From positions 1-42,581 of IMG/VR virus record IMGVR_UViG_3300029787_000105: a DNA stretch of 42,581 nt; one strand, written 5' to 3'. A program made the translations under genes and the position numbers. The DNA comes from a virus. Under the pieces are notes generated by a model. It was not told the DNA's origin and made no database searches. It saw only the letters and a program-made list of their open reading frames with translations. Shown here in pieces: positions 1 through 42,581 of the stretch (position 1 is its first letter; each line of letters starts with the position of its first letter).

Positions 1-262
1 TCTTTACGTATGTTCCATCTGAATCCATAAAGTCAACACGGTATACTTTGTTAATTTCCACACCGGCGTTACTGTCGCTAAGAGTATACCACTGTTGATT
101 TGCTACTGTGGTGAGTTTTGCATATTCAACCTTTGTGTTGTACTTGCCCATCTCTACCAATGACTCATTTATTAAATTTAAAATATAGGTCTCAGGCGCA
201 TCTGGAAAAGCTTGCCTTACCCTAGATATAATTTTTCTTACGGTTAAACTTATAACAGCCAT
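1..262 (-). CDS. Neck/adaptor-like virion protein, left copy (3' end cut by window)
   Basis: The 5' 87 codons of a gene whose full 102-aa version lies at 40517-40825. The proteins differ at only a few residues, although many third positions differ. The start ATG at 262 overlaps the TGA of the upstream repeat-protein gene, so the two are probably translationally coupled. The N-terminus is helical and begins MAVISLTVKKIISRVRQAF. Small proteins of this kind occur among the neck and tail genes of uncultured aquatic phages. An adaptor role is inferred from context only. The C-terminal end is missing because the window ends. Confidence 0.75.
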   Translation of the reverse strand, partial: MAVISLTVRKIISRVRQAFPDAPETYILNLINESLVEMGKYNTKVEYAKLTTVANQQWYTLSDSNAGVEINKVYRVDFMDSDGTYVK

Positions 263-531
263 CAGTCAGAGTCCTTTCCAAGCATACCTATTTGCTTCCA
301 AGTTTTAGCTTCAGATTCCCAGTTACTAGCTATACCTGCCCAAGAGCCAGATAGTACTGCACTAGGGCTTGTATTTAGAGTAACCAGAGTTGAACTAGGG
401 CTGGTATTAAGACTTACCAATGTAGAACTTGGAGATGTGTTTAAGTTAACAAGCGTAGAGCTAGGGCTAGTATTCAATGTTACCAATGTAGCAGACGGAG
501 ATGTGTTCAGATTTACCAATGTCAATGCCAT
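262..531 (-). CDS. LNTSPS undecapeptide-repeat virion protein, left copy
   Basis: An 89-aa protein. Residues 4-58 are five near-perfect 11-residue units of the type TLVxLNTSPSS, each with one LNTSPS core (residues 8, 19, 30, 41, 52). A non-repeated C-terminus with Trp-rich SGSWAG..SNWESEAKTW follows. The regular period suggests a beta-solenoid or extended fibrous element. No transmembrane segment is seen. The start abuts the stop of the 419-aa neck/tail gene, and the stop overlaps the next ATG. The copy at 40825-41094 differs at two residues. The family is not recognised; a small structural or needle-like tail component is inferred from position. Confidence 0.8.
   Translation of the reverse strand: MALTLVNLNTSPSATLVTLNTSPSSTLVNLNTSPSSTLVSLNTSPSSTLVTLNTSPSAVLSGSWAGIASNWESEAKTWKQIGMLGKDSD
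358..522. repeat. Five tandem 33-bp coding repeats
   Basis: Each 33-bp unit encodes the undecapeptide of the LNTSPS protein. Neighbouring units alternate between two nucleotide spellings of LNTSPSS (forms containing gagctagggctagt and gaacttggagatgt on the plus strand). This fits past duplication of a 66-bp pair. The same array is at 40921-41085. Confidence 0.85.
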
Positions 532-1790
532 TATGCGCTCCTCAGTAGCTGTATACCTTTGTCGTAGTCTGTTTGTAGCTTTGCTTGCTGTAGCTGTGCG
601 TTTTGAAACTTCTGAGCGTTGTTTTGAAAGTTCTGTACGTAGGTTTGTACCTCAGTATTTACTAGGGCAGTGTACCTATTCATCTCAGCTAAAAACTTTT
701 GTATGATGTCGTCATTGTTTTGTATTGTAGCCTGTAGAGTTTGGGCTGCATTTTGCAGTGCTAACACTTGGTCTTGTGATTTGTTAAACTTATCAATATC
801 TGTAGCTTGAGCTGCTTCTTGTTGTGCATCAGCTGCGTCTACCTGAGCCTGTCTTAATGCTTTTTGTAAATCACTATTGTGCTTTGCTAACTCTGCCTGT
901 ACATTTGCTTGATATCTCGTGTTTTCTTTATTGAACTCGTTTAGTTCGTTTTGTATATCAATTTGATGCGCTCTTAATAATTCTTGTTGTTTTTGTAAAC
1001 TTATTGCCGCCATCTCAGGGTCTTCACTGGCAATAAAATCATCAAACCCTAAACTAGCTTCTGTTCCCGCTGAAGAATCGCTACTAGATAAAGTTCCAAA
1101 ATCTACAGTTGTAGATGGTTTAGTGTAAGCTGGAACGTCTCCACTGATATCTGCCTTAGAAACCGTAGCTACTGTTATCGCACCTACAGCTGTACTAGAA
1201 GCATCTGCATTTGTTGCTGCTGAATAACTTACAGTTCCTATACTCGGAGCGCTAGGCGCAGACGCTGATATGCTTAAATCAGATTCTACCAATCCACTCA
1301 TGTTTTGTTGCAATGCTTTTATAGCTGCATAGGTAGTAACTAGATATTCGTATTCGTCAGGAAAATTTGTTATCGTAGATATAGCACTAGCATCTAACGG
1401 TGAGCCTTGATTGTAAGTAGGAACAGAAACCATCAAACCGTTGCCATTTGGAAATATGTTTATTTTTCCATCTTGTATGTAATATACAGGGTCTGTATTG
1501 GTAGCAAACTCCATGTCAGATGAATCCTGAACCCTCCCTCTTTTGTAAGCAGGTATCTGTCTACAAGGCTGGTCTATTGTTCCATCGTTTTTCAGTACAT
1601 ACAAAATCTTATGCCCTTCTGAAGTGGTAGTGCCGTCCGTAACAGTTGTTTCTTCTGCTATTCTTTCAAGCAAAGGTCGAGGCATAGCGTCAATCACTTG
1701 ATTAGCGCCTTCTGTTATGAAGGTATCTAACGCTGTCTCATCGCTAAAAGTACCAATCAAGTCAACAACTTGTGCGCTAAATGTTGCCAC
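531..1790 (-). CDS. Neck/tail structural protein, left allele
   Basis: A 419-aa protein. Residues 1 to about 150 are a globular domain with IPAYKRGRVQDSSDMEF and YYIQDGKINIFPNGNGL, shared almost unchanged with the partial protein at 41094-42581. Residues ~150-250 are Ser/Ala/Thr-rich. Residues ~265-400 are a Gln/Asn/Ala-rich coiled coil. The last ~20 residues (QQAKLQTDYDKGIQLLRSA) are shared again with the right allele. Only the middle is exchanged, as in a domain swap between fixed ends. The start overlaps the end of the zinc-ribbon gene by 14 bp. A neck or tail adaptor carrying a fibre-like stalk is inferred from position; the family is not firmly recognised. Confidence 0.75.
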   Translation of the reverse strand: MATFSAQVVDLIGTFSDETALDTFITEGANQVIDAMPRPLLERIAEETTVTDGTTTSEGHKILYVLKNDGTIDQPCRQIPAYKRGRVQDSSDMEFATNTDPVYYIQDGKINIFPNGNGLMVSVPTYNQGSPLDASAISTITNFPDEYEYLVTTYAAIKALQQNMSGLVESDLSISASAPSAPSIGTVSYSAATNADASSTAVGAITVATVSKADISGDVPAYTKPSTTVDFGTLSSSDSSAGTEASLGFDDFIASEDPEMAAISLQKQQELLRAHQIDIQNELNEFNKENTRYQANVQAELAKHNSDLQKALRQAQVDAADAQQEAAQATDIDKFNKSQDQVLALQNAAQTLQATIQNNDDIIQKFLAEMNRYTALVNTEVQTYVQNFQNNAQKFQNAQLQQAKLQTDYDKGIQLLRSA

Positions 1791-10418: not shown

Positions 10419-10545
10419 CTTTAGGTCCTAACCTTTTTTTTTCTTCCATATTTAAAGCAATAGCAACTGCTTGATACATGGGATATCCTTCGTCAACTAA
10501 TTTAGATATCTTTTTGTTTACCCTTCTATTGCGAGGTTTGGACAC
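10387..10545 (-). CDS. Small basic phage protein
   Basis: A 52-aa protein read from GTG at 10545, which overlaps the preceding TAG. It is rich in Lys/Arg, with KISKLVDEGYPMYQAVAIAL, a short helical motif seen in small basic proteins of uncultured phages, and a GPKGGYRR tail. It overlaps the terminase start by 32 bp, which suggests coupled translation. A DNA-binding virion component is a guess from charge and neighbours. Confidence 0.6.
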   Translation of the reverse strand: MSKPRNRRVNKKISKLVDEGYPMYQAVAIALNMEEKKRLGPKGGYRRAKAKK

Positions 10546-10835
10546 TACCACTTAACCTTATCTGCCCAGAATGCTGCAGACATCTTGCCCTTTGCTATGT
10601 TTTTTCTGTGACGTGCTTTAAATGACTTTCTTTTCATGGTGATAGCACGTGATTCACCTTTCTTTGGTTTACCAGCAGTAGATGCGCCTTGCTGTCCAAA
10701 GCGTATAGTTTTAATTTTTTCACCCTCTTTAGCAACTACTATGTGTGACTTGGTAGGATGACCGGGTGTTCTCTTGGGTTTATTAAACCCTGCTACCCCT
10801 GCTCTTTTGAGTCTTGGGTCTTTTTTTCCTGCCAT
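10545..10835 (-). CDS. Basic DUF6321-like protein
   Basis: A 96-aa, strongly basic protein with KDPRLKRAGVAGFNKPKRTP, then HPTKSHIVVAKEGEKIKTIR, FGQQG, and the C-terminal RKSFKARHRKNIAKGKMSA followed by AFWADKVKW. This pattern matches my memory of the DUF6321 family of aquatic phages; a profile search was not possible. The charge suggests DNA association. Start and stop overlap neighbours by one base on each side, so it belongs to a four-gene basic-protein cluster upstream of the terminase. Confidence 0.7.
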   Translation of the reverse strand: MAGKKDPRLKRAGVAGFNKPKRTPGHPTKSHIVVAKEGEKIKTIRFGQQGASTAGKPKKGESRAITMKRKSFKARHRKNIAKGKMSAAFWADKVKW

Positions 10836-11230
10836 TATGCTCTTCTTACTCTGCTTGCTATTTTTTTAGTGTACTTCGCTTTAGGCTTTCCTGCTTTAGT
10901 AGCTGCTCTTTTTCTTTTGTTAGTAGCTGCTTTTTCTGATGCGGATAAACTCGCTCTTACTTTCTTGGGCAGGTAACGTCCTCTTTTGGACTTTGGTTTC
11001 TTTTCATCACCTTTTGTTGTGTAACCCCATTCTTGTTTGGTCCACTTAGATAGTTTATTGGAACTAGACTTTGCTCCTTTATAACCTCCACCTGCTTTTT
11101 TATATCTAGCGGTAGCTAACTGAGCCTTTCGAGCTGACCACTTTCCTGCCGGTCCACCCTTGCTGCCTGCTTTTACACTGGCAACAATACGTTTCCATTT
11201 TGCAGGTTGTGTCTTTGTAGCACTAGCCAT
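10835..11230 (-). CDS. Basic DUF5872-like protein
   Basis: A 131-aa, Lys/Ala-rich protein. The central part has SNKLSKWTKQEWGYTT and RGRYLPKKVRASLSASEKAA, the pattern I associate with DUF5872, seen in phage and algal-virus proteins. Both ends are flexible and highly basic. It could condense or coat DNA, by composition only. It overlaps the next gene by one base. Confidence 0.7.
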   Translation of the reverse strand: MASATKTQPAKWKRIVASVKAGSKGGPAGKWSARKAQLATARYKKAGGGYKGAKSSSNKLSKWTKQEWGYTTKGDEKKPKSKRGRYLPKKVRASLSASEKAATNKRKRAATKAGKPKAKYTKKIASRVRRA

Positions 11231-21016: not shown

Positions 21017-21247
21017 GTGTTGGCGAATTACGATAAGATTATAGAACAAATACAATCTGAGATAGTGAGGATACGGGAAGCTAATAAGAAGTTGCTACTA
21101 AAGAATAGCACATTGCAGTACGCAGAAAATACGATGTACTTAGCAGGTCTTTATAAGGGGTTAAGTATTGTTACGGACCACGTAAGAGACGAATTAAAAG
21201 AGCTAGATAAATGGGCAGACGATAAGCAAAATGACATTTCTGCTTGA
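21017..21247 (+). CDS. Hypothetical coiled-coil protein (76 aa)
   Basis: Starts at GTG 21017 after GAAAGGTTAATA. Residues 5-35 are a charged coiled coil (YDKIIEQIQSEIVRIREANK). The rest is helical and acidic. No function is recognised. Confidence 0.55.
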   Translation: MLANYDKIIEQIQSEIVRIREANKKLLLKNSTLQYAENTMYLAGLYKGLSIVTDHVRDELKELDKWADDKQNDISA

Positions 21248-21302
21248 ATATGGCAAGAAACAGTGTAAATTCCGAAAGTATCAGCAATTATTTAGGAGAG
21301 TT

Positions 21303-21530
21303 ATGTTGTTAAACAAAACTGCAATTAAAAAAATGTTTCACGATGAGGGCATACAGGTCAATGTATTAGCACTCAACATTGTAGAACGCCTTGTGCGATA
21401 CGTGGTAGATTCTATGATAATCGGAGCAAAGTTCAAGAAAGTAAAAAGGGTTAAGCCTAGCAATATAGAAAAGATATCTGATGAAGAGATAAAAACTATG
21501 CTTATACACATGGATGATAGACCTTTTTAA
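21303..21530 (+). CDS. Probable histone-fold DNA-binding protein
   Basis: ATG 21303 is chosen because AGGAG lies 5 bp before it; this gives 75 aa. The pattern matches a single histone fold: alpha1 NKTAIKKMFHDEG (4-16), loop 1 IQVN, long alpha2 VLALNIVERLVRYVVDSMII (21-40) running on to KFKK, loop 2 VKRVKPSNI (47-55), then a short alpha3. Loop 2 is very like the RKTIKAEDI of archaeal histones. Histone-like proteins are known in some phages. The C-terminus ends DDRPF, like the tail of single-strand-binding proteins. It overlaps the next gene by 17 bp. Confidence 0.5.
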   Translation: MLLNKTAIKKMFHDEGIQVNVLALNIVERLVRYVVDSMIIGAKFKKVKRVKPSNIEKISDEEIKTMLIHMDDRPF

Positions 21531-22257
21531 GATATACGATGACTATATTATGGACCTCAAGGGCGAGAACTATGACGCCCGATACGAGGGTAAGGATACA
21601 TGGTTTCACGCATCTGGCGCAGGTTTGTGTATGCGTAAACACTACTTTGCCCAGATAGAAAAGCTACCGACCGGAGACAAGGACTCTAACACGATGCGAC
21701 TCTTCAGACTTGGTGACTTGGTTCACGGAGATATGCAAGAGGCATTAGAAAGATACGCAAAAAAGAACGGGTACGAGGTTCACATTGAGACAGAGATTCT
21801 GATTCCACGATTGAATGTACGCAGCTTTGTAGATGCTATGATTCTAAAAGATGGTGCATTGTACGATATCAAAACGTGTAACGATTTCAAGTGGCAATCT
21901 CTCTTTGGCAGATACGGAAGTAAAGAGGCACCGCAAAATTATGCAATTCAGTTGGGAACTTATGGGCTTTATTATCGTGAAAACAATATAAAGATAAATA
22001 AGATGGCACTACTTTTTTATAACAAGAACAATTCACGTGTCAAAGAATTAAAGGTACCGAGAAAGTATATTGATATCGCAGAAAGATATTGGCTAAAGGT
22101 AGAAGAATTATTTAAAGACGGCTTACCACCGATAGAGAAGGGGTTCTCTCCAGTAGAGGATTGGGAGTGTAACCCTAAGTATTGTTCGTTTTACGAGCCT
22201 TGTGGTGGTGGCATAAAAGGAATACAAGAAAGGGAAAACAAATGGACCAAGAGGTAG
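21514..22257 (+). CDS. Cas4-like PD-(D/E)XK nuclease with Fe-S cysteines
   Basis: A 247-aa RecB-family nuclease. H71 lies in LVHGDMQEALE, D107 in VDAMI, D118-I-K120 in LYDIKT is the (D/E)XK motif, and Q146 to Y150 the QlgtY motif. Four cysteines (C39; C219, C224, C230) match the split Fe-S cluster of Cas4 and AddB proteins. The family cuts or resects DNA ends. Here it is next to ssDNA-binding-type genes, so recombination-dependent replication or host DNA degradation is plausible. The start at 21514 has no good ribosome site; 21550 is an alternative. Confidence 0.8.
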   Translation: MIDLFKIYDDYIMDLKGENYDARYEGKDTWFHASGAGLCMRKHYFAQIEKLPTGDKDSNTMRLFRLGDLVHGDMQEALERYAKKNGYEVHIETEILIPRLNVRSFVDAMILKDGALYDIKTCNDFKWQSLFGRYGSKEAPQNYAIQLGTYGLYYRENNIKINKMALLFYNKNNSRVKELKVPRKYIDIAERYWLKVEELFKDGLPPIEKGFSPVEDWECNPKYCSFYEPCGGGIKGIQERENKWTKR

Positions 22258-22643: not shown

Positions 22644-23099
22644 ATGTCAGACGACTCTTACTACATACCAAGTAGGGATAGTGCGGACTCTCGCATACCC
22701 ACTGGAGAATACAAAGCTATGATATGCGACATAGAAGTTATGAAGGATATGCGTTGCGGGGGGTTCATAGCTGATGTATTCAAGCCGGTCTATCGTATCA
22801 AGCATTCAGAATACGATGGAACAGAAATAAAAGATAGCGGGCTCTTTAGATATAAAGATGTTCAAGGCTATCAGTTCAAGCCAAACCGTAATTGGGGATT
22901 TGCTAAGTTCTGCCAAACTCTTGGCATACAAAAGAACGATAAGAATAAAATGTCTTTACCTTATTTGCAATTGAGTATGTTGACAAACATAGATATAATC
23001 ATTGACGTCACTTATAAGAGTTTTGTAAATAAAGAAGGTGTAAATGTCAGCTATCCCGTAGCGGTTTTAAAAAAGAAAATAGAGGAGGTTCCGTTTTGA
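22644..23099 (+). CDS. Putative single-stranded DNA-binding protein
   Basis: A 151-aa protein whose N-terminus (SRIPTGEYKAMICDIEVMKD) resembles phage DUF669-type ssDNA-binding proteins. It continues with a beta-rich core (GLFRYKDVQGYQFKPNRNWG) and ends KKIEEVPF, an acidic-Pro-Phe tail like the partner-binding end of SSB. It sits between the Cas4-like nuclease and two further nuclease-like genes. It begins directly after the preceding stop. Confidence 0.6.
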   Translation: MSDDSYYIPSRDSADSRIPTGEYKAMICDIEVMKDMRCGGFIADVFKPVYRIKHSEYDGTEIKDSGLFRYKDVQGYQFKPNRNWGFAKFCQTLGIQKNDKNKMSLPYLQLSMLTNIDIIIDVTYKSFVNKEGVNVSYPVAVLKKKIEEVPF

Positions 23100-23864: not shown

Positions 23865-24115
23865 AGAACAAAAACAAGACCAATAACAAAGACAGAGACA
23901 AGCAGATTACACACTTGTTTGAAAGGGTGTACGGCTTAGGACAAGAATTACGGATGGTAAGGACGCTTTTAGAAAACTATATAATATGGAATGGCGATGT
24001 CGAAAAATTCACAAAACACTTACAAGAAGACCAAGAAAAAAGAGAATCAAAGACGAGGAAAAAGAAACCGTCAAAGAGGAGCGGAGCTACAAAGGCAGGC
24101 AGTAAACCTAGCTAA
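23861..24115 (+). CDS. Hypothetical 84-aa basic protein
   Basis: TTG at 23861 overlaps the previous TGA and has GGAG upstream. It is basic at both ends (MKNKNKTNNKDRDKQ and TRKKKPSKRSGATKAG), with a helical middle (LFERVYGLGQELRMVRTLLE). The last 125 bp overlap the resolvase gene in another frame, an unusually long overlap for this genome. Confidence 0.5.
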   Translation: MKNKNKTNNKDRDKQITHLFERVYGLGQELRMVRTLLENYIIWNGDVEKFTKHLQEDQEKRESKTRKKKPSKRSGATKAGSKPS

Positions 24116-24353
24116 AGATTTTAAACTAGAAGCTTTTAATCGAGACAGAGGTGGGGCGCAACATGAGATGGGTGACATAGAGATTGAAGGTAATTACTAC
24201 GGTTGCAAAAGAAGAAAGTCTATTGCGACTTGGGTAAAGCCAGAGAAAGAAGAAGTGGGTGTGGTAATACGAGAAGACAGAGGTGCACCATTTATGGTAG
24301 TCCCATTGGAACATTATTTATTTTTAGTGTCGCTTTGCAAGGAAAAGATTTAG
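23991..24353 (+). CDS. Holliday-junction-resolvase-type protein
   Basis: A 120-aa protein with a very basic N-terminus, then QRGAELQRQAV with E32, GGAQHEMGDIEIEG with D62, and YYGCKRRKS with K73. The layout is that of small PD-(D/E)XK resolvases, where the expected E-x-K is here G71-C72-K73, so the usual second acidic residue is missing. Either the acid has moved, as in some lineages, or the enzyme is altered. Resolvases cut branched DNA before packaging. Starts at 23991 or 23997; no alternative start lies nearby. Confidence 0.6.
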   Translation: MAMSKNSQNTYKKTKKKENQRRGKRNRQRGAELQRQAVNLAKDFKLEAFNRDRGGAQHEMGDIEIEGNYYGCKRRKSIATWVKPEKEEVGVVIREDRGAPFMVVPLEHYLFLVSLCKEKI

Positions 24354-24461: not shown

Positions 24462-24686
24462 ATGGCATTTGAACATAAACCAAATACTGCTACAGTATTT
24501 TTTAACGGAAAGAAAAGCGGTGATAACCAGCCAGATTTCACAGGAAAGGGTAAGGTTGGAGATAGTTTGATGGAGTTCGCTATGTGGAGAAAGAAAACTC
24601 AGAAGGGTGATGAGTATTTTTACATGAGTTTTAAGGAACCATCAGAGAAATTCGGCAATAAAAAGAGTAATGACGACCCTTTTTAA
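24462..24686 (+). CDS. Small DUF736-like protein with SSB-type tail
   Basis: A 74-aa protein with PNTATVFFNGKKSGDN, PDFTGKGKVGDSLMEFAMW and EYFYMSFKEP. This matches a widespread small phage family that resembles DUF736. It ends KKSNDDPF, an acidic-Pro-Phe end like that of single-strand-binding proteins. A role with ssDNA or the replisome is inferred from the tail and the cluster. AAAGGAGCC precedes the ATG. Confidence 0.6.
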   Translation: MAFEHKPNTATVFFNGKKSGDNQPDFTGKGKVGDSLMEFAMWRKKTQKGDEYFYMSFKEPSEKFGNKKSNDDPF

Positions 24687-40517: not shown

Positions 40518-40825
40518 TAGTCTATATCCATTGTTGGTATTTCGTTATCTAAAAGTCTTGGTATCTTTACGTATGTTCCATCTGAATCCATAAAGTCAAC
40601 ACGGTATACTTTGTTAATTTCTACACCAGCGTTGCTGTCGCTAAGAGTATACCACTGTTGATTTGCCACTGTGGTGAGTTTTGCATATTCAACCTTTGTA
40701 TTGTACTTACCCATCTCCACTAATGCTTCGTTTATTAAGTTTAAAATATAAGTTTCAGGCGCATCTGGAAAAGCCTGTCTTACTCTAGATATAATCTTTT
40801 TTACAGTTAAACTTATAACAGCCAT
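40517..40825 (-). CDS. Neck/adaptor-like virion protein, right copy (complete)
   Basis: 102 aa: N-terminal helices (KKIISRVRQAFPDAPETYIL), then a small beta domain (NKVYRVDFMDSDGTYVKIPR). The left copy (1-262) is the same gene with scattered synonymous changes. Its ATG overlaps the stop of the LNTSPS gene. Confidence 0.75.
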   Translation of the reverse strand: MAVISLTVKKIISRVRQAFPDAPETYILNLINEALVEMGKYNTKVEYAKLTTVANQQWYTLSDSNAGVEINKVYRVDFMDSDGTYVKIPRLLDNEIPTMDID

Positions 40826-41094
40826 TAGTCAGAATCCTTTCCAAGCATACCTATCTGTTTCCAAGTTTTAGCTTCAGATTCCCAGTTACTAGCTACACCT
40901 GCCCAAGAGCCAGATAGTACTGCACTAGGGCTTGTATTTAGAGTAACCAAAGTTGAACTAGGGCTGGTATTAAGATTTACCAATGTAGAACTTGGAGATG
41001 TGTTTAAGTTAACAAGCGTAGAGCTAGGGCTAGTATTTAATGTTACCAATGTAGCAGATGGAGATGTATTCAGATTTACCAATGTCAATGCCAT
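40825..41094 (-). CDS. LNTSPS undecapeptide-repeat virion protein, right copy
   Basis: 89 aa, five 11-residue repeats, two residues different from the left copy (S40 to N, I67 to V, counted on the left sequence). Same junctions with both neighbours. Confidence 0.8.
   Translation of the reverse strand: MALTLVNLNTSPSATLVTLNTSPSSTLVNLNTSPSSTLVNLNTSPSSTLVTLNTSPSAVLSGSWAGVASNWESEAKTWKQIGMLGKDSD
40921..41085. repeat. Five tandem 33-bp coding repeats, right copy
   Basis: Same array as 358-522, encoding the LNTSPS undecapeptides. Confidence 0.85.
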
Positions 41095-42581
41095 TATGCG
41101 CTCCTTAGTAGCTGTATACCTTTATCATAGTCAGCTTGTAGCTTTGCTTGTTGCCTTTCGTACCAAGTATACTCAGTGCTATCAACATTTAACCTGACCT
41201 GTACTTCATTTGCATAAGCACTTGCTATTCCAAGCTTAGACTGTATTTCGTTTGCATAGCCTGTAGCAGCATTAATATAGCTTGCAGCTACGTTTCCTTG
41301 GGCTCCAACTTGTGCCAATCTTTGAGATACTTCATTGCCAAAAGCTTGAACTTCATTAGCGGCAGCGTTTGCTTCTGATAGATAGGAATTACCTAGCTGT
41401 ATTCTAGAATTAGATTCTTCTCTTTTAGCTTGGGCTTGAGCAAGTCTAGCTTGTATTTCGCTTGAGTATCCAGATGCTATATTAATTTTTGCTTGTATCT
41501 CATTTAGATACCCTTGAGCAGCTGATAAAAAACCACTAGCAACACCTACTTGCGCATTACTTTGGTTTACTCTGGCGGACACTTCGCCAATAAATCCTTG
41601 AGCCTCTGAAAGACTTGCTTGAGCCTCAGATATAAAGCCGCCTCCAGCGTTTATATGAGATGAGGCTAATTCTACATCTTCTGCTGTATTTGCGGTGACT
41701 GCGCTATCAAACTGCGTATTAGCTAACGCAACAGCTGTATTTACCCTGTCTACAGCCGTGTTTATTGCTGCAGTTGCTGTATCTATGTCTGAATCTACTA
41801 GAGCGGTTGCTTCTGTTAGTTCGGTTACGGCGGTATCCACCTGTGTATTAATTAAATCACAGACTGCTTGAGTTTCATCTAGTTCGGTATTTATTGCCGT
41901 CAGTGCAGTGTTTATATCTGTCTCAGTATCTGCTTCACCTAAATCCAATAAAGCATCACCCTTATCAAACTCAGCGTTAGCAAGCCCAACAGCTGTATTT
42001 ATTCTGCCAGCTGCGGTCGTCATAGCTGCTAAAGCGGTATCTACATTAGAATCTACATTGGTGACGGTTTCAGCTATTTCTACAACAGCCGCATCTACTT
42101 GGGTGTTTATCAAATCTGCAATGGTGAGTGTTTCGTCTATTTCTGTGTTAATAGCAGTTAAAGCAGTTGTGATATCAGAGTTACTATGCAAAGCAGATAG
42201 GTTTTGATTCAATGCTTTTATAGCTGCATAGGTAGTAACTAAATACTCATACTCGTCAGGAAAGTTTGTTATCGTAGATATAGCACTAGCATCCAGCGGT
42301 GAGCCTTGATTGTAGGTAGGAACTGAAACCATTAAACCATTTCCATTTGGAAATATATTTATCTTTCCATCTTGTATGTAATATACTGGGTCTGTATCGG
42401 TAGCAAACTCCATGTCAGATGAATCTTGAACCCTCCCTCTTTTATAAGCAGGTATCTGCCTGCAGGGCTGGTCTATTGTTCCATTATTTTTAAGAACATA
42501 CAAAATCTTATGCCCTTCTGAAGTGGTAGTGCCGTCCGTAACAGTTGTTTCTTCTGCTATTCTTTCAAGCAAAGGTCGAGG
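41094..42581 (-). CDS. Neck/tail structural protein, right allele (5' end cut by window)
   Basis: The open frame runs off the window; codons at the edge read PRPLLERIAEE, matching residue 38 onward of the left allele, so about 37 residues are missing. After the shared domain (to DEYEYLVTTYAAIKAL) the sequence changes to Ala/Asn/Thr-rich repeats (TDINTALTAINTELDET; LINTQVDAAV), then a coiled coil of ~11-residue units (NEIQAKINIASGYSSEIQAR). It ends with the shared QQAKLQADYDKGIQLLRSA. The central domain is unrelated to that of the left allele. Confidence 0.75.
   Translation of the reverse strand, partial: PRPLLERIAEETTVTDGTTTSEGHKILYVLKNNGTIDQPCRQIPAYKRGRVQDSSDMEFATDTDPVYYIQDGKINIFPNGNGLMVSVPTYNQGSPLDASAISTITNFPDEYEYLVTTYAAIKALNQNLSALHSNSDITTALTAINTEIDETLTIADLINTQVDAAVVEIAETVTNVDSNVDTALAAMTTAAGRINTAVGLANAEFDKGDALLDLGEADTETDINTALTAINTELDETQAVCDLINTQVDTAVTELTEATALVDSDIDTATAAINTAVDRVNTAVALANTQFDSAVTANTAEDVELASSHINAGGGFISEAQASLSEAQGFIGEVSARVNQSNAQVGVASGFLSAAQGYLNEIQAKINIASGYSSEIQARLAQAQAKREESNSRIQLGNSYLSEANAAANEVQAFGNEVSQRLAQVGAQGNVAASYINAATGYANEIQSKLGIASAYANEVQVRLNVDSTEYTWYERQQAKLQADYDKGIQLLRSA

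Follow-up and report, generated by a model that had tools for sequence, protein, structure and literature searches.

Whether tailed phages apply proteins with a true histone fold to their own DNA is a question that a small gene of a marine bacteriophage now makes directly testable. Bacteriophage histones have been known as predictions since 2024 (Schwab et al., 2024; PMC11390915), and in the literature we found no experimental test of one. The gene lies at the middle of the window, by which we mean the whole 42,581-nucleotide stretch analyzed here (IMG/VR record IMGVR_UViG_3300029787_000105), and a preliminary description made from the letters alone had read its product as a histone fold joined to a terminal tag of the kind by which single-stranded DNA-binding protein (SSB) recruits its partners. 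The locus therefore poses two questions, namely whether the fold is that of a histone and, if so, of which type, and whether the tail is a tag at all. The features on which the answers rest are collected in Table 1.

Table 1. Positions in the window of the histone-fold gene, its predicted structural elements and the other operon genes discussed in the text.
Feature	Position	Strand	Description	Basis
Probable ribosome-binding site of the histone-fold gene	21294..21298	+	AGGAG, 4 bases 5' of the ATG	Direct sequence
Histone-fold gene (P0001)	21303..21530	+	75 aa, MLLNKTAIKKMFHDEGIQVNVLALNIVERLVRYVVDSMIIGAKFKKVKRVKPSNIEKISDEEIKTMLIHMDDRPF, ends DDRPF	Translation
Predicted helix α1	21315..21344	+	Residues 5-14, lysine-rich (K5/K9/K10)	DSSP on AlphaFold model
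Predicted long central helix α2	21363..21434	+	Residues 21-44 (21-45 in the sister model)	DSSP on AlphaFold model
Loop L2 and start of short α3	21444..21467	+	K48-RVKPSN-I55; wider family [KR]R[LV][TK]P	Alignments
Predicted short helix α3	21456..21476	+	Residues 52-58	DSSP on AlphaFold models of the window and sister proteins
DDRPF tail and stop	21513..21530	+	All but the first base inside the 17-base overlap with cas4	Junction comparison, 14 loci
Cas4-type PD-(D/E)XK exonuclease	21514..22257	+	Overlapping downstream gene	phrog_1706, E 1.3e-18; phrog_1990, E 1.1e-9; PF12705, E 1.2e-5
151-aa operon protein	22644..23099	+	Ends ...EVPF	No family match
RusA-like Holliday junction resolvase	24003..24353	+	Same operon	phrog_244, E 7.3e-6
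SSB-like small protein	24462..24686	+	Same operon, ends NDDPF	phrog_18154 'single strand DNA binding protein', E 8e-4

Translation yields the 75-residue product with the terminal DDRPF that the preliminary description had assigned to these positions, and a GGAG-like motif stands near the place of its probable ribosome-binding site in most homologs as well (junction comparison). Close copies of the gene, 93–96% identical, are carried by ten IMG/VR contigs. Because third codon positions account for 33 of the 40 variable sites across 11 close copies and pN/pS is 0.057 (mean pN 0.017, mean pS 0.29), the open reading frame is a real coding gene on which purifying selection acts. Initiation at 21231 in the same frame would give 99 residues; this longer form was rejected, as a TAA interrupts the frame just 5' of the ATG in a close relative (L007).

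Direct searches with the protein recovered near-identical copies only; diverged homologs were reached through the neighboring Cas4-type gene, which marks the same place in other genomes, and more distant ones by profile-based scans of other phage contigs. Homologs were found in this way on about 30 IMG/VR contigs, where the neighboring genes mostly encode Cas4-type exonucleases, Sak/Sak4 annealing proteins, DnaB helicase/primase or SSB-like proteins, and 24 distinct members were compared. The wider homologs and the window group are homologous to each other (hhalign probability 98, E 4.5e-14) and have in common the motifs K-T/S-x-x-K-K-x-F in α1, I/V-Q-V/I/L in loop L1 and K/R-R-V/L/I-K/T-P in loop L2. 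R49 is invariant in every aligned member, K5 is invariant in the window group and K9/K10 are mostly retained. In the window protein the 58-residue core bears a net charge of +7, and a positive core charge is shared by 21 of the 22 members examined; one member (L032) is acidic, with a net charge of -3, which suggests that DNA binding may not be universal in the family. A tblastn search of 50,697 phage records with five members gave no credible match, the best one (H57) being rejected because it sits within a large unrelated gene. Pfam, PHROG and NCBIfam hold no model for the family and returned nothing credible. What emerges is a compact, unannotated family with a clear signature (K-T-x-x-K-K-x-F ... 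I/V-Q-V/I/L ... K-R-V/L-x-P).

Single-sequence searches (Pfam, PHROGs, NCBIfam and phmmer against the PDB) gave no histone match for the 75-residue protein, and PF00808 found nothing in the window at E <= 10, while it did give matches in archaeal control genomes. We attribute the lack of a histone match in single-sequence searches to the divergence of the family. A query profile built from ten members of the window group was aligned by hhalign with real histone sequences, drawn both from α3 histones (PDB fragments, observed residues only; haloarchaeal plasmids; viral contigs) and from nucleosomal archaeal histones. It aligned with them along the whole fold, over 53 columns, with a score of 25.95, which none of 300 column-shuffled profiles reached (mean 9.3, SD 1.9, maximum 16.6); the reversed profile scored 13.6, and for 13 other conserved protein families of these phages the score against the histones did not exceed 14.1. 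With the wider homologs added to the query the score became 27.0, or 27.6 against the α3 histones alone, and the wider homologs by themselves scored lower (23.7 against α3 histones, 17.8 against the mixed profile). The alignment to the α3 histone profile spans 50 columns with one single-residue gap. As judged from these profiles, the relation of the family to histones is detectable beyond chance, and the HHpred-type comparison suggested along with the preliminary description thus came out in favor of histones.

The predicted structures agree. Single-chain AlphaFold models were made with no templates from a custom alignment, and helices were assigned by DSSP. The model of the window protein (pLDDT 84.2) has helices at residues 5-14, 21-44 and 52-58 and a less certain one at 61-70; that of a sister protein which lacks DDRPF (L023; pLDDT 88.2) has helices at 5-14, 21-45 and 52-58 and no extra C-terminal helix. 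The spacing α1–loop–long α2–loop–α3 that had been read from the letters is recovered in these helices and in the far-beyond-chance profile alignment, and in place of the confident non-histone structure that was named as the contrary outcome, both models (pLDDT 84 and 88) contain an α1, a long α2 and a short α3. Foldseek searches of the PDB with either model returned almost exclusively histone folds. The window model matched HBb of Bdellovibrio bacteriovorus (probability 0.96, target-normalized TM-score (TMt) 0.74, 2.0 Å), HLp of Leptospira perolatii (0.94, 0.77, 1.9 Å) and HTkC of Thermococcus kodakarensis (0.80, 0.76, 2.0 Å), and for the sister model HLp ranked first (1.00, 0.79, 1.9 Å); overall, the three solved histones superpose on the models at about 2 Å, with target TM-scores of 0.70–0.79. 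The Foldseek E-values are weak (0.1–1.2), as is usual for a helical protein of 70 residues, and we therefore place weight on the consistency of the matches and on the profile test, which is independent of them. Among viral models, A0A516LUS5 in BFVD is the nearest (probability 1.00, TMt 0.84, 1.1 Å, 31% identity); it may itself belong to the 'phage histones' discussed below. Given the profile match with its controls, two confident models and solved α3 histones as the closest structures, the 75-residue protein almost certainly has a histone-type fold, as the preliminary description had proposed.

The type of histone differs from the one first suggested. The RxTxxxD motif with its RD clamp, which marks the nucleosomal (HMf-type) histones, is not kept, its arginine being replaced by V47, its aspartate by N54 and its threonine by the invariant R49. 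The preliminary description had likened the segment KRVKPSNI to the archaeal RKTIKAEDI; an L2-like loop is indeed present there, but the likeness to the archaeal sequence does not extend to the clamp residues or the threonine, and the protein is better matched by histones with a truncated α3. α3 histones are marked by a shortened α2 and a truncated α3 (Schwab et al., 2024; PMC11390915); the modeled α3 comprises 7 residues, against the 3-4 given for them, and in the distant members this region continues as ELLWIALG.

Within that class a minor category, the 'phage histones', is exemplified by A0A2E7QIQ9 (Schwab et al., 2024; PMC11390915). Like the window family, its members have an N-terminal α3-type fold, come from tailed-phage-like metagenomic genomes, lack RxTxxxD and show low identity to other histones, and their conserved residues (K10, K49 and a side arginine) have counterparts in K9/K10, K48 and R49 of the window family. 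A C-terminal helical tetramerization domain is described for them (PMC11390915), of which no firm counterpart was recognized here: the window model has the short, less certain helix 61-70, the sister model has none and the ends vary between members. On the strength of the α3 fold, the missing RxTxxxD, the conserved lysines in α1 and L2, the one highly conserved arginine and the encoding by tailed phages, we consider it likely that the family belongs to the 'phage histones' or is closely related or sister to them, a kinship drawn from their published description. The window protein is most likely a new member of this recently predicted kind, the phage α3 histones.

Comparison with the solved structures helps to delimit what can be carried over from them. 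HLp (PDB 9QT0) has the same helix layout and is the closest solved fold to the sister protein, but it retains an R55-D62 RD clamp and forms DNA-wrapping tetramers (PMC12701072), whereas both clamp positions are changed in the window protein. HBb (PDB 9F0E, 8FVX; probability 0.96-0.99 for 9F0E) is likewise a small single-domain protein; it is, however, chromosomal, has an RKTxxxD motif that the window protein lacks and is a demonstrated DNA-bending dimer (PMC11317129). HTkC (PDB 9F2C), an archaeal histone that lies about 1.8-2.0 Å from the models (TMt 0.74-0.77), is a cellular protein with a GRKT loop, unlike the window protein.

The Cas4-type gene adjoins the histone-fold gene in all close relatives, and the neighbors in distant relatives encode Sak4-like and Sak-like annealing proteins, DnaB helicase and primase. 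From the constrained gene, its homology to histones, the predicted fold and this operon context we infer, with good though not overwhelming probability, an α3-type histone-fold nucleoid-associated protein that acts as a handshake homodimer and binds duplex phage DNA non-specifically during replication and recombination. Two copies would pair in the 'handshake' manner, and the dimer would probably bind phage DNA, contacting the duplex irrespective of its sequence through the α1 lysines K5, K9 and K10 and through the paired L2 loops (K48, R49). Once bound it may bend or bridge the DNA as this is replicated and recombined, alongside the Cas4-type exonuclease, the SSB-like protein and the resolvase encoded by the same operon. 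In this proposed role alone it can be likened to p6 of phage phi29, an abundant nucleoid-associated protein by which the viral DNA is compacted (PMC11894785).

Two other products of the operon deserve mention in their own right. The EVPF end of the 151-residue protein is kept in 15 of 15 distinct homologs, down to 44% identity; by this comparison its SSB-Ct-like end is conserved, unlike DDRPF, and the protein is a candidate for a new ssDNA-binding protein of phages whose SSB-Ct-like tail is genuine. The SSB-like protein ends in NDDPF in the window clade, where DDRPF also occurs, and in KPAF or KPGF in its sisters.

If the terminal DDRPF of the histone-fold protein were the SSB-type partner tag of the preliminary description, the fold would coat phage DNA while the tail docked host proteins that bind SSB (RecO, PriA, Exo I, the chi subunit and others). 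In favor of such a tag, the tail is acidic with a terminal PF, the operon contains the two further ends EVPF and DDPF, the latter again setting the window clade apart from its sisters (KPAF), and the 17-base overlap with cas4 is invariant in 11 copies despite 40 variable sites among the 228 of the gene. Among the 24 distinct family members, however, a C-terminal PF is limited to the window's close clade, DDRPF being missing from every homolog beyond it (these end in ND, SD, DD, DDWLF and others), and the third residue from the end is arginine, where E. coli DDDIPF has isoleucine. The junction itself suggests how the tail arose. In most sister genes the stop is a TGA inside the cas4 start (ATG ATT GAT, read as ...GAT TGA); in the window clade cas4 starts ATG ATA GAC CTT TTT AAG (Met-Ile-Asp-Leu-Phe-Lys), which the other frame reads as GAT AGA CCT TTT TAA (D-R-P-F-stop). 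The TGA was probably removed by changes silent for Cas4, and once it is lost aspartate and arginine are forced, while proline and phenylalanine are among few options. The residues D, R, P and F are in this way largely set by the cas4 codons, which also account for the invariance of the overlap: none of its 17 sites varies, against 40 of 211 elsewhere in the gene, because it codes in two frames. From these alignments, DDRPF most likely arose in this clade alone, by reading on into the start of the overlapping cas4, and is no SSB-type recruiting tag; its conservation or selection as a tag finds no support, nor does recruitment of host proteins through it. That the fold might coat phage DNA is plausible in itself. 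We accordingly regard a DNA-coating fold with a docking tail as quite improbable. There is an equally slim chance that the loss of the stop codon in the window clade joined the histone fold to a working SSB-type tail that recruits SSB-interacting repair or replication proteins of the host; if true, this protein, together with the EVPF and DDPF tails of two other operon products, would tie phage chromatin to the SSB interactome of the host. The case shows that an apparent protein-interaction tag can originate from an overlapping reading frame.

The fold might also serve mainly as a protein–protein module or as one half of a heterodimer, perhaps assisting the Cas4-type exonuclease or an annealing protein as a cofactor, with little direct part in DNA architecture. 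Many eukaryotic histone folds (TAFs, MHF, NF-Y) act in this manner, and the overlap with cas4, which suggests translational coupling, the recombination genes that adjoin the histone-fold genes of distant relatives too, the lost RD clamp and the acidic member L032 would all suit such a role. Set against this, most members are basic, with R49 invariant in L2 and lysines in α1, and the distant members adjoin differing genes, so that no single partner is constant; we think this role unlikely. That the protein has some other small helical DNA- or protein-binding fold, resembling histones by chance, would agree with the failure of the Pfam, PHROG, NCBIfam and PDB sequence searches to find a histone, but it is made very improbable by two AlphaFold models of different homologs, near-uniform histone-fold matches in Foldseek and profile scores far above those of shuffled and real controls. 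The non-specific DNA-binding homodimer remains the reading that we prefer.

L032 (JAOMCQ010000022.1), a phage contig homologous to the window's operon, was found in a single-cell assembly of the archaeon Nitrosopelagicus. An archaeal host was considered and not adopted: among 250 genomes of that family only 1 has the close phage gene, a search of the Nitrosopelagicus single-cell genome did not find the window's terminase, and an endolysin (phrog_465, E 4.5e-35) is among the products of the window, for which reasons a bacterial host is more likely than an archaeal one. The contig in the single-cell assembly probably belongs to a phage that was sorted along with the cell.

The ends of the window (1-1682 and 40563-42581) carry the same genes at about 93–94% identity, apart from the differing middles of a coiled-coil-like protein of 419 residues at one end and 492 at the other. 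Since each sister genome has one version of these duplicated end genes, the contig probably represents a circular or permuted genome of roughly 40.5 kb, with overlapping ends that derive from two strains. The protein in question (531-1790 and 41094-42572) is present as allelic variants that keep both ends and have unrelated middles between strains; it is hypervariable and possibly structural. Near the terminase, two adjacent, very basic proteins rich in Lys, Arg and Ala (96 and 131 residues; 10545-11230, minus strand), without a Pfam match, are possible candidates for DNA-condensing proteins.
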